Shown piece after piece: positions 43,032 through 50,142 of a stretch of DNA of 64,000 nucleotides. The notes under the pieces were generated by a model. That model was not told where the DNA came from. It was given only the letters and a program-made list of their open reading frames with translations, and searched no databases. This DNA is from Gemmatimonas aurantiaca T-27. GTDB lineage: Bacteria; Gemmatimonadota; Gemmatimonadetes; Gemmatimonadales; Gemmatimonadaceae. Each line of letters starts with the position of its first letter. Within the stretch, counting starts at the first letter, position 1. The stretch is taken from positions 2,487,646-2,551,645 of the forward strand of contig NC_012489.1 in NCBI RefSeq assembly GCF_000010305.1, in the 5' to 3' direction. The translations under genes and the position numbers were made by a program.

Positions 43032-44248
43032 TGCGATCGTTGGCGCCTGCACTCGCTGCCGGTGCCTTCGCGTTGCTCGTGCCACTCACGGCCGTCAACG
43101 CGCAGGCCGCTGGCAGCACCCAACCGCCTCAGAGCGCCGAACAACGCCTGCGTCTGCAGCAGACGGAACTGGACAAGCTGCGCCGTGAACGCGGTGACCT
43201 CGAAGCCCGCATGAACGAGCTGCAGCGTTCCGCGCGCACACTCACCGAAGAAGTGAACAACCTGGAAGCCCAGCGTCAGACCACACGTCGGCTCGTGGAG
43301 GCACTGGATCGTCAGCTCGGCACCATCAATGAGGAAGTCACGAAGGCCGGCTCCGGACTCGTGAAGGCCGAAAGAGAGCTCGGCGACAAGCGCTCGGCGC
43401 TCCAGCGTCGCATGGTGGAGATTTACAAACGCGGCAGCCTGTACGACGTGGAGGCGATGCTGTCGGCGCACTCCTTCGCGAGTCTGGTGGCGCGCTACAA
43501 GTATCTGCACGAGCTTGCCTTGCGGGACCGGAATCTCGTGCGGCGTGTGGAAGGACTGCGCGACCAGATCATCAATCAGCGCATGCTGCTGGTGCGGCTG
43601 CAGGATGATGTGGAGCGCAATCGTCAGGAGAAGACGCGGGAAGCGCGCCGTCTCTCCGACCTCGAGAATCGCCGACAGCGCAATCTGGTGGCGGTGCAGA
43701 AGTCCACCGCGCAGACCCGCGCACGTCTGCAACAACTGGCGCGCGATGAGTCGCGTATCGCCGGCGCCATCGCGGCACTCGAGACGGCGAGACGGCGCGC
43801 CGAGATGGCGCCAAACGCCCGCCCGTCGGCCCCTTCGTCCATTCGCACGTCGGATCTCGGCAAGCTGGATTGGCCGGTGGACGGGACTATCCTGTATCGA
43901 TTCGGACGTGTGGTGAACGCCAACAACACCACGACGCGCTGGAATGGCATCGGTATTGGTGCCAACACGGGCTCCGCCGTGAAATCCATTTCGGCAGGCG
44001 AAGTGGTGTTGGCCGATAACGTCGGCACATACGGACCCACCGTGATCGTGCAGCACGGTGGTGGTGACTACTCCGTGTACGGCTCGCTGCAGCGCATCGA
44101 TGTTCGTAAGGGACAGCAGGTCACCAAAGGTCAGGTACTCGGCACGGTTGGCGATACCGATCCGGAGCTGCCGCCCCACCTGCATTTCGAGATTCGGCCC
44201 AAGGGTCGCGCCGTCGATCCGCTCGAGTGGCTGCGCGGGCAACGGTGA
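43031..44248 (+). CDS. envC: EnvC-like activator of murein hydrolases (degenerate M23 domain)
   Basis: The 405-residue protein has a signal peptide (1-24, ending VNAQA), then a long coiled coil (about 33-265). The C-terminal M23/LytM domain (about 290-400) is degenerate. Catalytic M23 domains have H-x3-D early on; here that site reads RWNGIGIG, losing both zinc ligands, while the later PHLHFEIRP is kept. This matches EnvC, which activates amidases instead of cutting peptidoglycan itself. The ATG at 43031 shares a base with the ftsX stop, and its stop overlaps nfo by four bases. Confidence 0.9.
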   Translation: MRSLAPALAAGAFALLVPLTAVNAQAAGSTQPPQSAEQRLRLQQTELDKLRRERGDLEARMNELQRSARTLTEEVNNLEAQRQTTRRLVEALDRQLGTINEEVTKAGSGLVKAERELGDKRSALQRRMVEIYKRGSLYDVEAMLSAHSFASLVARYKYLHELALRDRNLVRRVEGLRDQIINQRMLLVRLQDDVERNRQEKTREARRLSDLENRRQRNLVAVQKSTAQTRARLQQLARDESRIAGAIAALETARRRAEMAPNARPSAPSSIRTSDLGKLDWPVDGTILYRFGRVVNANNTTTRWNGIGIGANTGSAVKSISAGEVVLADNVGTYGPTVIVQHGGGDYSVYGSLQRIDVRKGQQVTKGQVLGTVGDTDPELPPHLHFEIRPKGRAVDPLEWLRGQR

Positions 44249-45186
44249 GCCCGGCTGCCAAGCGGGCCCCGGCAGGCAAAGCACCGCTGTTGGATGCCCC
44301 CATCGTGCTCGACGCGGGCGATGCGAGTCAGGATCGCGGTCCACTCGGTGCGCACATGTCGGTGGCTGGTGGTTCGTGGGAAGCCGCGCCACGCGCCCGT
44401 GAAGTGAGCGCGACGGCCATGCAGATCTTCACCAAGCAGGCCAATCGCTGGGCCGAGCGTGAGGTGGACGCTGTTGAGGCGACCCGCTTCCGTGAGGCGC
44501 TCAGCGCGACCTCTGTACGATGGTGTTGCGCACACGACTCCTACCTGATCAATCTGGCCTCGCCCATGCCCGAGTTGCGCGAGCGTTCGGTGTTGAGTTT
44601 TCGGGCCGAGCTGCGCCGCTGTCATGCGCTGGGCCTCGATGCACTGGTATCGCACCCTGGCAACTTCATCGACGACCGGCCAAGCGGCATCGCCCGCAAC
44701 GCCGACGGGATTATCGAAGCGCTGGAGGCGGAGCCGGGCCCGACCCGCCTGCTCATGGAGCTCACGGCTGGTCAGGGAACGGTGCTCGGCTCCACCTTCG
44801 AAGAAATGGCCGACCTGTTGTCACGGATCCCATCTGCCTTGCGGGGGCGTATGGGTGTGTGTCTCGACACCGCGCACGTATGGGCGGCGGGTTATGACCT
44901 GATCAATGCTTACGACGACATGTGGACTCGCTATGCCGACACGCTGGGCTTTGCATCGCTGGGTTGTCTTCACCTCAATGACTCCAAAGCGCGCCTGGCG
45001 TCGCACCTCGACCGACACGATCTGATCGGTGAAGGCAGCATTGGTGCGGACGTGTTCCGTCGCATCATGACCGACGAGCGCCTGACGCATGTTCCCAAAG
45101 TGCTTGAGACCCCCAAAGGCGACAGTCCTGCCGAGACGGATGCGCGCATGCTGCATCGTCTGCGCTCGTACGCGGCGGGGTTGTAG
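44245..45186 (+). CDS. nfo: Deoxyribonuclease IV (AP endonuclease, Nfo family)
   Basis: The 313-residue enzyme cleaves DNA 5' to abasic sites in base excision repair. After a 35-residue extension, the Xyl-isomerase-like barrel shows GAHMSVAGG, SHPGNF with a zinc His, LLMELTAGQG with a zinc Glu, CLDTAHVWAAGYD, HLNDSK, DRHDLIGEGSIG and LETPKG. All the trinuclear-zinc ligand motifs are present. The GTG at 44245 overlaps the envC stop by four bases. It is the last gene of the overlapping set and an odd companion for envC, though such chance linkages occur. Confidence 0.93.
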   Translation: MSPAAKRAPAGKAPLLDAPIVLDAGDASQDRGPLGAHMSVAGGSWEAAPRAREVSATAMQIFTKQANRWAEREVDAVEATRFREALSATSVRWCCAHDSYLINLASPMPELRERSVLSFRAELRRCHALGLDALVSHPGNFIDDRPSGIARNADGIIEALEAEPGPTRLLMELTAGQGTVLGSTFEEMADLLSRIPSALRGRMGVCLDTAHVWAAGYDLINAYDDMWTRYADTLGFASLGCLHLNDSKARLASHLDRHDLIGEGSIGADVFRRIMTDERLTHVPKVLETPKGDSPAETDARMLHRLRSYAAGL

Positions 45187-45221
45187 TCGGCCAGCTTTGG
45201 TGTGGGTGGAGACATTTGGGG

Positions 45222-45371
45222 GCGCCCCTTCGGGGCGCGGTACCTGCAGGATTGGCCAACGAATAAAGGCAGGATTGATCTCGGTAGACGGCGCATTTGC
45301 TGCGCACAACGGAGATCAATCCTGCTTCTTAAATTGTGTTCGATCCTGCAGGTATCGCCGCCGCAGGCGGC
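45222..45371. repeat. Nested palindromic element, REP-pair-like
   Basis: The 150-base element is built symmetrically. Outer hairpins lie at 45222-45238 (GCGCCCC-TTC-GGGGCGC) and 45357-45371 (GCCGCC-GCA-GGCGGC). Inside these are the inverted copies TACCTGCAGGA (45241-45251) and its complement (45344-45354). Then come GCAGGATTGATCTC (45269-45282) and its complement (45312-45325). At the centre is a small hairpin (45291-45305). It fills the gap between two convergent genes. The layout resembles paired REP sequences of enterobacteria and pseudomonads, but may also serve as a bidirectional terminator. Confidence 0.7.
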
Positions 45372-45401
45372 CCCTCCAGGCCACCCGCGGCTCCCCAACT
45401 A

Positions 45402-47747
45402 TCAGTACAACACCTTGTACACCAACGCGATGTTGCGCCCCGGATTGTAGGCGAACCGCTTGATGCGGCTGGTGGCATCGCGATACTGCTCGTCGAGCGC
45501 GTTGTCCAAACGCAGCGTGACCGAGTGCACCTGCCGACCGGCCAGTGTGAACAGCCAGCTCGCGTTCAGATCGAGCAACGTGTAGGCGTCGGTGGCCACA
45601 TCGAGTTCGTCACCGGTCACACGGTCCTGCGCAAACACGCGGCGCACATCGCCACCCAGCGAGACACGACCATTGTCGTAGCGCAACGAAGCACCGAGGC
45701 GGCCGGCCGGGATGTAGGGCAACACATCATCGCTGCCACGGATGGACGCCCGGGTATAGTCACCCATCAGGCCGCCCACAAAATGATGCACCAGCTTCGA
45801 TTCCACCTGCCCTTCCACACCAGCCAGCACGGCATCCCGCCCCGCGAACGTCACCGACGGCACGGCCTCACCATCCACCACCACTGGCGTGGCCAAGGCA
45901 ACCGGCGTGATGTAGCCATCGATGCGATTGTAGTAGCCATTGAACTGCGCGAACACACGCGACGACTGCGCACGCAGGCCTGCTTCGAGGCCAGTGCTCT
46001 GCTCCGCCTTGAGATCGGGATTGCCTACATCGTAGGTACCCACCGCAGCATGGAAACCATCGGCATAGAGCTCTTCCACCGCCGGGGCACGGAAACCACG
46101 TGACGCATTGGCCGACAGCGACACCCCCTCGGCCACAGGTACGCTCAGACCGATCGATCCGGCCATGTTGTCGAAGTTCCGTGTGCGCGGTGCACCGAAC
46201 CGCTCTGCCTCGGCCCCCGGGTTGGTTTCGATGGTGAAGCGATCGTAGCGCGCACCCAACTGCAACCGCGGCGCATGATCGGCATCGGGGTTGCGGGTGA
46301 TCGGAAACTCCTGGAACACGAACGCCGCGAGATTACGATTGTCCGCCGCCGGCGTGAACGCTTCTTCACCCACCGGCGCGTACTGCCGGAAGATGCCCTG
46401 CACGCCGAGGGCACCCGCCGCACGGCCGAAGCGGGTGCGCGCGGTGATGTTGGTGGTCTGCGTGCTCAGGTTGAAACGTGTGCCCACCTCACCACTCTCT
46501 TCGATTTCCGAGTGACGATAGGACTGCACGGTCTGGTCGACCTTGATCGTCGGCAGCGCCGTCACGCCGGTGTTGAGCGTCCCCTGCAGGGATCCCACGC
46601 GACGCAGGCCATCGATGCGCACCCTGCCGTGACCATGCCCCTCTTCATGGTCTTCTTCACCATCGTGATCATGGTCGTGGTCATCGCCGGCATCGTACGG
46701 CAGGCCGTACTCGAAATTCATCTGCCGATACACGCCGCCCAATGAGAGCTTCGTGCCGACATAACCACCACCCACCGTGAAGTTCTGCGTGCTGCCGCTG
46801 GTATTGAGCTGCTTGGCACCGCCGCCAACGCGGGTATCGGTGAAGTCGCGCAGTCCACCACGTGCCGTGAGCGCAAACTGCGACCCGAGGGGGAGCGTCA
46901 GCCCCACACCACCCACGCCACCGGGTGTGGCGGATTCACCCTGGCCCAGCAGGTAACCGGAGGCCTTGGTGGGGATGCTGGTCGGGATGTCATTGGAAAT
47001 GACGTTCACCACTCCGCCCAGGGCGTTGTTGCCGTACAACAGGGAGGCCGGGCCGCGAATGACCTCGATGCGTTCGGCGCTACTGGGGTCGACCGCATTC
47101 ATGTGATCGGCCGCGGCGGACGACAAGTCACCCGTGCGCTCGCCATCCTGCAATACGAGCACCCGTTCACCCGTGAGACCGCGAATCACGGGCGTGGACG
47201 CCATGGGACCATTGAAGCGCGCCGCCATGCCCGGCTCTTTCGACAAGGTCTGACCGATGGATGTGCTGAGGGCGCGCTGCAGTTCTTTGCCTCCCAATTG
47301 CACCGTGGCCTGGGTGACATCGAGCGGATCGCTGCCGGTGGGCGTCGCCGTCACATTGACGGAGCTGAGGCGGACCGTGGCTACGTGCATCACGATGGAA
47401 ACCCGCACATCGCTGCCGCTGGACGCGACCGTGACCACTTGGTGAGCGCTGGCATAGCCGATGCGCACGAGATCGAGATGATAGGTGCCCGAGGGCAGCC
47501 CGCGCAGCGCAAACTCGCCGCGTTCGTCGGTGAGTGCCGAGCGATTGCTACCGCTCGCGACCACCTGCACGTTGGCCAGCGGGGCACCGGCAGAGTCCTT
47601 GACGACCCCCAGCACCGATGCGCTTTGCGCCGCGAGGGGAGCAGCGGCCAAAGACAGGGCACCGAGGACCAGCCCCAGCGCCAATACGGCAACACGAAGC
47701 AGCGCCACGCGGCGCGCTTCCGTGATGCGGAAGAACGAGCGAACCAT
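45402..47747 (-). CDS. TonB-dependent receptor, ZnuD-like metal uptake
   Basis: The 781-residue outer-membrane receptor has a signal peptide (1-40, ending LAAQ), a carboxypeptidase-regulatory-like domain (about 44-125), a plug (about 135-255, with PVIRGLTGERVLVLQDG and IEVIRGPASLLYG) and a beta-barrel ending in Tyr. An extracellular loop at 352-374 is packed with His, Asp and Glu (HDHDHDGEEDHEEGHGHG). This is a mark of ZnuD-type zinc receptors, so it probably imports zinc or another transition metal. The ATG at 47747 starts the signal peptide. It lies 90 bases downstream of a DUF2946-like gene on the same strand. Confidence 0.88.
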   Translation of the reverse strand: MVRSFFRITEARRVALLRVAVLALGLVLGALSLAAAPLAAQSASVLGVVKDSAGAPLANVQVVASGSNRSALTDERGEFALRGLPSGTYHLDLVRIGYASAHQVVTVASSGSDVRVSIVMHVATVRLSSVNVTATPTGSDPLDVTQATVQLGGKELQRALSTSIGQTLSKEPGMAARFNGPMASTPVIRGLTGERVLVLQDGERTGDLSSAAADHMNAVDPSSAERIEVIRGPASLLYGNNALGGVVNVISNDIPTSIPTKASGYLLGQGESATPGGVGGVGLTLPLGSQFALTARGGLRDFTDTRVGGGAKQLNTSGSTQNFTVGGGYVGTKLSLGGVYRQMNFEYGLPYDAGDDHDHDHDGEEDHEEGHGHGRVRIDGLRRVGSLQGTLNTGVTALPTIKVDQTVQSYRHSEIEESGEVGTRFNLSTQTTNITARTRFGRAAGALGVQGIFRQYAPVGEEAFTPAADNRNLAAFVFQEFPITRNPDADHAPRLQLGARYDRFTIETNPGAEAERFGAPRTRNFDNMAGSIGLSVPVAEGVSLSANASRGFRAPAVEELYADGFHAAVGTYDVGNPDLKAEQSTGLEAGLRAQSSRVFAQFNGYYNRIDGYITPVALATPVVVDGEAVPSVTFAGRDAVLAGVEGQVESKLVHHFVGGLMGDYTRASIRGSDDVLPYIPAGRLGASLRYDNGRVSLGGDVRRVFAQDRVTGDELDVATDAYTLLDLNASWLFTLAGRQVHSVTLRLDNALDEQYRDATSRIKRFAYNPGRNIALVYKVLY

Positions 47748-47837
47748 GATCAATTCCACCTGAAACGTACGGAGTGAGCGACATGCGCTGTGTGCACGTC
47801 GAAGCACTGGCAGGCGGTGCGCCTGGCAGTGAAAAGC

Positions 47838-50060: not shown

Positions 50061-50067
50061 CTCCACA

Positions 50068-50088
50068 GATTGGCAAGAATTGCCAATC
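50068..50088. other. Small perfect hairpin after pckA
   Basis: Arms GATTGGCAA and TTGCCAATC with a GAA loop lie between the pckA stop and the main terminator. It may protect the transcript end. Confidence 0.5.
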
Positions 50089-50100
50089 CCTGATGCAAGA

Positions 50101-50142
50101 GCGGACACCGCAGAGCTGACTTCTGCGGTGTCCGCTTTTTTT
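50101..50142 (+). terminator. Strong intrinsic terminator of pckA
   Basis: A perfect 13-base-pair stem (GCGGACACCGCAG, 50101-50113; CTGCGGTGTCCGC, 50123-50135) with a nine-base loop is followed by seven T residues. Its T-run touches the stop of the convergent phosphoesterase gene, so the stem may also end that transcript. Confidence 0.93.

Follow-up and report, generated by a model that had tools for sequence, protein, structure and literature searches.

The window (the whole 64,000-nucleotide stretch of the Gemmatimonas aurantiaca T-27 genome analysed here) contains a nested palindrome in the short space between two convergent genes. Is it a signal belonging to that gene pair, or one copy of a repeat that moves, and if so, what moves it? 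The sequence-only reading had seen in it the pattern of paired repetitive extragenic palindromic (REP) elements mobilised by a RAYT-type transposase, with a local bidirectional terminator as the alternative should the genome hold no other copy. The palindrome measures 162 bp (45217-45378) and consists of two half-elements in inverted orientation that enclose a variable interior (inverted repeat I1, assigned to neither strand). To its left lies an AP endonuclease family 2 gene, endonuclease IV-like and called nfo here (44227-45186, plus strand; PF01261, E 3e-40), whose stop codon (45186) is 30 bp before the element. To its right, a TonB-dependent receptor gene (45402-47807, minus strand; PF00593 and PF07715) has its stop codon (45402) 23 bp past the element. 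The two genes do face each other, as had been claimed.

From the outside inwards, each side consists of a GC hairpin, TACCTGCAGGAT and GCAGGATTGATCTC, with a small hairpin at the centre. The left head hairpin is of type A (GCGCCCC-TTC-GGGGCGC, 45222-45238, plus strand; from sequence, fold and alignment A1). It is followed by the left arm (45241-45282, plus strand), an array of short units by sequence and computed spacing, with GCAGGAT at 45246-45252 and 45269-45275. The A/T-rich tract AATAAA (45262-45267, plus strand) precedes the inner hairpin. The inner palindrome (inverted repeat I2) pairs its left arm (45269-45285, plus strand) with a right arm on the minus strand (45309-45325) at 94% complementarity, and the fold places a small central hairpin at 45291-45305 (GCGCA-TTTGC-TGCGC, plus strand). 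A weak T-rich tract, TTCTTAAATT (45326-45335, plus strand), lies 3' of the inner hairpin. The right arm (45312-45354, minus strand; sequence, inverted repeats and computed spacing) is again a short-unit array, inverted, and the right head hairpin beyond it is of type B (GCCGCC-GCA-GGCGGC, 45357-45371, minus strand; sequence and alignment A2). TACCTGCAGGAT at 45241-45252 recurs inverted at 45343-45354 (12 nt), and GCAGGATTGATCTC at 45269-45282 recurs inverted at 45312-45325; both matches are exact, and neither word has an exact copy elsewhere in the window. Both arms of this copy are tandem arrays, with GCAGGAT spaced 23 and 24 nt. The pieces described from the letters alone (two outer GC hairpins that differ in sequence, inverted segments that match exactly from arm to arm, and a central hairpin) are thus all present.

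The RNA of 45210-45395 is predicted to fold at -109.1 kcal/mol compared to -69.3 +/- 4.2 for shuffled sequences (z -9.54), and 0 of 200 shuffles folded as well. The RNA of the opposite strand (z -8.76) and the same stretch folded as DNA (z -7.31) gave similar values. A search of 44500-46000 against Rfam returned no match at E ≤ 1. The T tracts flanking the GC-rich stem are weak in both directions: the AATAAA tract reads TTTATT on the minus strand, which is weakly terminator-like, and TTCTTAAATT serves the other direction. A scan of 44900-45700 for consensus terminators found no site.

The window belongs to a genome of 4,636,964 bases in one contig (99.97% complete; G000). BLAST of this genome returned 23 matching segments, among them the window copy itself, matched in both directions. 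From these, 26 half-elements were taken and aligned over 48 columns, and a covariance model was built from the 19 halves that share one stem register; the seven with a longer stem or loop were left out. The model identified 28 half-elements at E ≤ 0.01, with the window copy matched at genome positions 2532861-2532910 and 2532975-2533022. Further copies thus exist, and the absence of any other copy, the result that had been said to favour a local terminator, was not what was found. The 28 matches make up 12 complete inverted pairs, two single halves (genome positions 356443 and 3459449) and one degenerate pair (3633419-3633577), one half of which was detected by the model; one weak match at 4627895 is unpaired. 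The window palindrome is therefore one of about fourteen related non-coding elements in G. aurantiaca T-27, and their wording is particular to the species.

A typical half consists of a hairpin, GATACCnGCAGGAT, CAACnGCCGGAT and then often ACCAGCAGGAT. The units of the arrays are 11-12 bp long and in tandem, and in all 26 aligned halves the first unit is followed 12 or 22-24 nt later by another that agrees at 6 or 7 of 7 letters. The interiors are not homologous between copies, yet by eye they are often palindromic themselves. Arms resemble each other more closely within an element than between elements (329 matches versus 281.3 expected, P 5e-5). By eye, the heads form nine AB pairs, three BB pairs and no AA pair; we claim no preferred A/B pairing, since random pairing gives zero AA with P 0.086. 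No target-site duplication was recognised by eye. The half-element model matched at E ≤ 0.01 in 42 of 99 family genomes, G000 and its genus included. Outside the genus the best match had E 4.4e-6, matches in other genera were weak only, and many of them span only the GC hairpin (model positions about 7-24). The exact word GCGATACCNGCAGGATCAAC gave eight single matches in named records of other phyla, a set from which records near the window may be absent, and we take these as chance. A search of the open-access literature found nothing on repetitive extragenic palindromic elements of G. aurantiaca, and nothing related on gemmatimonad intergenic inverted repeats, as judged from the listing.

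The comparison with paired REP elements stood in part. REP dimers, as described in the excerpts of PMC3733652 used here, include heterodimers with different stems whose spacers have complementary ends and which lie between convergent genes; the G000 elements are likewise dispersed, intergenic, inverted pairs of hairpins with unlike stems, at convergent 3' ends. What did not stand is the transposase. A profile search for PF01797 (Y1_Tnp), the family sought as RAYT (TnpA_REP), gave no match in G000, whereas five of 14 control genomes, E. coli among them, were positive, and RAYT as the partner in G000 is thus unsupported. The end tags are missing as well: where a REP hairpin, by the definition in the same excerpts, carries GTAG or CGTC at one end, the G000 elements read GTATC (GTACC at the left head of the window copy), and those of the sister species G022 read TTGTC. 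The conserved columns of the G000 halves read GATACC (reverse complement GGTATC). The elements also differ from REP, BIME and REPIN families in their small number of about 14 copies, in arms made of 11-12-bp tandem units and in interiors that are not common to the copies.

In the sister species G022, the half-element model is weak (three matches, best E 1.7e-6). The plan of the elements is nevertheless identical: a hairpin, which in some copies reads GGCGCCCTGCGGGCGC, leads into GACAACnGCATGA units spaced 11, 12 or 23 nt apart, and the inverse follows. The combined word GAYAMCNGCAKGA has 42 matches in G000 (reversed control 3) and 34 in G022 (reversed control 0), and 0-12 matches in each of the other 97 family genomes. 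Six of ten G022 elements lie between convergent genes and four do not, with two single-armed places left out. Two of the 15 G000 loci are orthologous to G022 element loci, namely the nfo|TonB site (L126 in G022) and a prolyl-oligopeptidase locus (L127). A third locus pair (L016 and L130) shares its genes, and there the G022 genes are about 28 bp apart and the element is absent. Two sites occupied in both species imply either that the words changed in concert with at least two positions kept, or that the same sites were hit twice. A GxxExxY nuclease-like gene adjoins the element at one orthologous site in both species (L007:1601-2023 in G000 and L127:1526-1930 in G022; PF13366 at both, TIGR04256 for L007). 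We did not adopt it as a partner because it is adjacent only, and to one element only.

The window site itself could be compared across the genus. Orthologues of the flanking genes were sought with a joined query in 21 genus genomes, and the nfo site was fetched in 14; G110 was left out (match at a contig end), and in five genomes nfo was absent among the matches listed. In eight of the 14 genomes nfo is followed by the TonB receptor gene, as in G000 and G022. The nfo|TonB site is occupied in G000, G022, G111 and G115 and empty in G102, G104, G105, G106, G113 and G114, where 22-34 nt separate the aligned protein ends. The words of G000 and G022 at this site are related to each other, and G111 and G115 carry a third, unrelated word. 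G112 has a third-word element after nfo, with a different next gene; in G048, G098, G107, G069 and G109 the neighbour of nfo differs and none of the words was found. On a small tree, in which G112 (a poor row) was counted as unoccupied, the four occupied taxa need two changes, and 42 of 500 label shuffles needed as few; G022 falls in a group with three species whose site is empty (support 94/96).

The third word, GGAGGGTRTCAGG, has 18, 19, 18, 36 and 28 matches in G107, G110, G111, G112 and G115, respectively, and 0-4 in each of the other 16 genus genomes. By our own count, 70 of the 119 matches form inverted pairs with starts 47-79 nt apart. Of 15 third-word elements fetched, eight lie between convergent genes, four between same-strand genes and three are beyond judging. 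Stretches of relatives orthologous to other element sites (18 at prolyl-oligopeptidase, six at bioB and two at trxR) held the first, second or third word in 0 of 26 cases. In G109 a 15-bp tandem array, GATGCCGTCGTTACG, follows bioB (L159), at the orthologous position to G000 L006; by eye, the five other genomes fetched for this site have no such array, though G099 has a short tandem-like stretch. Since orthologous sites are occupied or empty and the words are replaced, the elements look, from these sequence comparisons, like ones that are gained, lost and re-worded, and not like fixed local terminators.

A terminator could still be imagined in another form, as a bidirectional intrinsic terminator selected at each site, with its sequence homogenised between copies. 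In its favour, ten of the 15 G000 copies lie between convergent genes (four lie between same-strand genes, and one, a single half, between divergent genes), and in six of 15 the two flanking genes both stop no more than 50 bp from the element. These placements come from a heuristic ORF caller, with the genes by L003 and L005 settled from six-frame translations and one gene beside L009 by eye. For comparison, a similar rough caller scored six of 44 neighbouring gene pairs across the window as convergent; it overlooked the genes on either side of the 45217-45378 element itself. Several copies also read AAAAGCAGGAT...ATCCTGCTTTTAT. Against it, no consensus terminator was called at the window element, and by eye the T tract is missing from all three BB copies as well as from at least two more. 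An apparent ordinary intrinsic terminator of the window (50061-50140, between two convergent ORF calls), with a stem around GGACACCGCAGA / TCTGCGGTGTCC and a T run after it, looks quite different. A terminator effect is also not needed at the window site, because six sister species do without the palindrome in the 22-34 nt between the same two proteins. We consider site-by-site selection as a terminator decidedly unlikely, although an effect on termination or mRNA ends is plausible wherever a copy has A/T tracts flanking its inner hairpin.

The species-specific words also bring to mind arrays of protein-binding sites, either chromosome-organising or an uptake-like signal. DNA uptake sequences number hundreds to thousands per genome. 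Those of Neisseriaceae share with our elements the species-specific words and inverted pairs, possibly between convergent genes; they differ in copy number, and the G000 elements have longer hairpin heads and are present or absent as whole sites between species. The 11-12-bp units, their inverted orientation, the variation of the word by species and the likeness to uptake sequence dialects (PMC3630211) fit such arrays. Given that the genome has just about 14 sites, far fewer than there are uptake sequences, and that the sites come and go among species, we find binding-site arrays very unlikely. A word homogenised within each species implies a sequence-specific factor acting in trans or copying between copies. 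From these observations we infer that the elements are, or once were, mobile and that a trans-acting factor recognises them.

A candidate for this factor came from the third word. Two third-word pairs, with the words 517 (G115) and 532 nt (G112) apart, enclose a gene of the PF05635 family (23S rRNA-intervening-sequence protein; TIGR02436, four helix bundle protein). A wider third-word pair in G107 (L206:280-1554) has a Mutator/IS256-type transposase gene inserted in it, which suggests that the palindromes may also be insertion targets. PF05635 was found in 14 of 16 chosen genus genomes at 54 places, one of them below the cut-off; the genes (L207, L208 and L226-L275) are multi-copy in the genus, with up to nine per genome. 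We scored the inverted alignment of the flanks across each gene and required at least 20, a value compared to which shuffled flanks reach at most 17. At one setting, 42 of the 54 places were examined and 41 tested (one was too short); 36 of these passed, and a 37th (L251) passed at 47.5 with a narrower inner limit. Of eight loci cut by contig ends and tested on the remaining flanks, five passed and three failed. PF05635 genes thus lie between inverted arms at 42 of 49 tested loci, many of which, several pairs included, come from close relatives, and at seven of 49 they do not; five of the 54 places fell outside the test. The controls gave 0 of 43; they were loci of chance hits, for the most part in other genera and without matching for gene size, and one place was counted twice. 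Before four PF01797 loci were excluded from them, two of 47 controls had reached 20, and both were PF01797 loci.

This last result bears on another possibility, that the palindrome is an orphaned REP heterodimer: its REPIN-like family would have been moved by a RAYT in the past, and the lineage would since have lost that RAYT. The outline agrees with that of REP heterodimers in the excerpts of PMC3733652 (different stems, complementary spacers, convergent placement). PF01797 is present in 19 of 99 family genomes and in six of 21 genus genomes (L180, L181, L182, L183, L184 and L185 in G110, G098, G048, G105, G113 and G102, respectively), and the six genus genes likewise lie between inverted short repeats, two of the four PF01797 loci among the controls passing the arm test. 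By eye, however, these repeats share the core GGGGTCAGAG, which differs from the words of the palindromes at the nfo|TonB sites, and the GTAG/CGTC tag is missing. In the five genomes where an element lies at the nfo site or beside it, three of them only 70-83% complete, PF01797 also had no match; it was matched in three of the six genomes whose nfo site is empty. We therefore regard an orphaned REP heterodimer as unlikely. The GGGGTCAGAG repeats form 12-bp tandem arrays in G048 (100% and 90% matching) and in G098 (77-81%).

Returning to PF05635, many of the arms around its genes are made up of short repeated units, which vary between loci. The arms at G107 L251, G111 L234, G112 L207 and G115 L208 match the dispersed third-word palindromes at 84-100% over 33-61 nt. 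We infer PF05635 as the partner because its genes in the genus are enclosed by arms of this kind, which in four species match dispersed palindromes in sequence. The link is seen for the third word only, and would extend to G000 by analogy. The three PF05635 genes of G000 have arms of their own (scores 44.5, 25 and 21), none of the GATACCnGCAGGAT type. The arms of the 15 G000 elements did not match PF05635 arms, apart from two weak matches of bare head hairpins (E 0.004-0.005). For G022 the sole match links an element to the arm of a G098 PF05635 locus over 21 identical nucleotides (E 7e-6), against a background in which 560 shuffled queries gave six matches at E ≤ 1e-3. ACNGC was considered as a core common to all PF05635 arms and rejected (inward excess in 18 arms versus outward in nine). 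The nearest solved structure for one G000 PF05635 protein is 2gsc, an uncharacterised protein. We know of no DNA-acting activity for PF05635 proteins. Literature tying PF05635 genes to dispersed intergenic palindromes was not found among the matches listed.

The rRNA intervening sequences after which the family is named offer a partial precedent. They are palindromic, occur sporadically and may carry a PF05635 gene, and older suggestions quoted in the excerpted part of PMC4990558 propose that they are mobile, with the reading frame serving mobility. The G000 elements differ in being intergenic, in several copies and with tandem-array arms, and they have no PF05635 gene inside; the window element sits between two protein genes and not in a 23S rRNA gene. 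With a PF05635-linked class the window element shares the inverted arms of short tandem units. For the third word, in G107, G111, G112 and G115, the arms of the dispersed palindromes also surround a PF05635 gene, whereas in G000 the three PF05635 genes have other arms than the elements. We propose a class of PF05635-linked palindromic elements that would include the window palindrome as a non-coding member. Miniature inverted-repeat elements (MITEs) are similarly short and non-autonomous with inverted terminal parts; here, however, the interiors of the copies are non-homologous and neither a parent insertion sequence nor a target duplication was recognised. No autonomous element sharing the terminal repeats was seen in G000 among the 28 model matches (E ≤ 0.01), whose pairs span at most 300 bp.

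On balance, we lean towards the palindrome being a non-coding, non-autonomous mobile repeat whose partner is a protein of the PF05635 four-helix-bundle (23S rRNA-intervening-sequence) family instead of a RAYT, with a possible side effect on transcript ends. In this mechanism, the mobile unit would consist of two inverted half-elements, each made of a head hairpin and the 11-12-bp units arrayed behind it, with an interior between them that varies and is often self-complementary. It would settle between the 3' ends of convergent genes, the place where an insertion may be least harmful. Transcripts entering from either side would fold into long stems, and bidirectional transcript ending or protection of 3' ends may follow as a side effect. 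Copies would be gained, lost and homogenised to one species-specific word. Mobility is probable for the G000 elements; against it, the homogenised wording could come from gene conversion alone, and the sites common to G000 and G022 fit vertical inheritance.

More broadly, and tentatively, with the chances somewhat against it, PF05635 four-helix-bundle proteins may be the partners of widespread inverted tandem-array elements, a RAYT-independent counterpart of REPINs. The arm words would be lineage-specific and each recognised by its own protein, the empty palindromes would be the non-autonomous members, and the rRNA intervening sequences would be elements of the same kind lodged in rRNA. Even without a partner, the genus is a clean comparative system, in which one intergenic site is empty or carries related or unrelated words. 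If the link to PF05635 is true, a family known mostly from rRNA intervening sequences would gain a role that can be tested, and REP-like palindromes would have a second way, independent of RAYT, of filling bacterial genomes.
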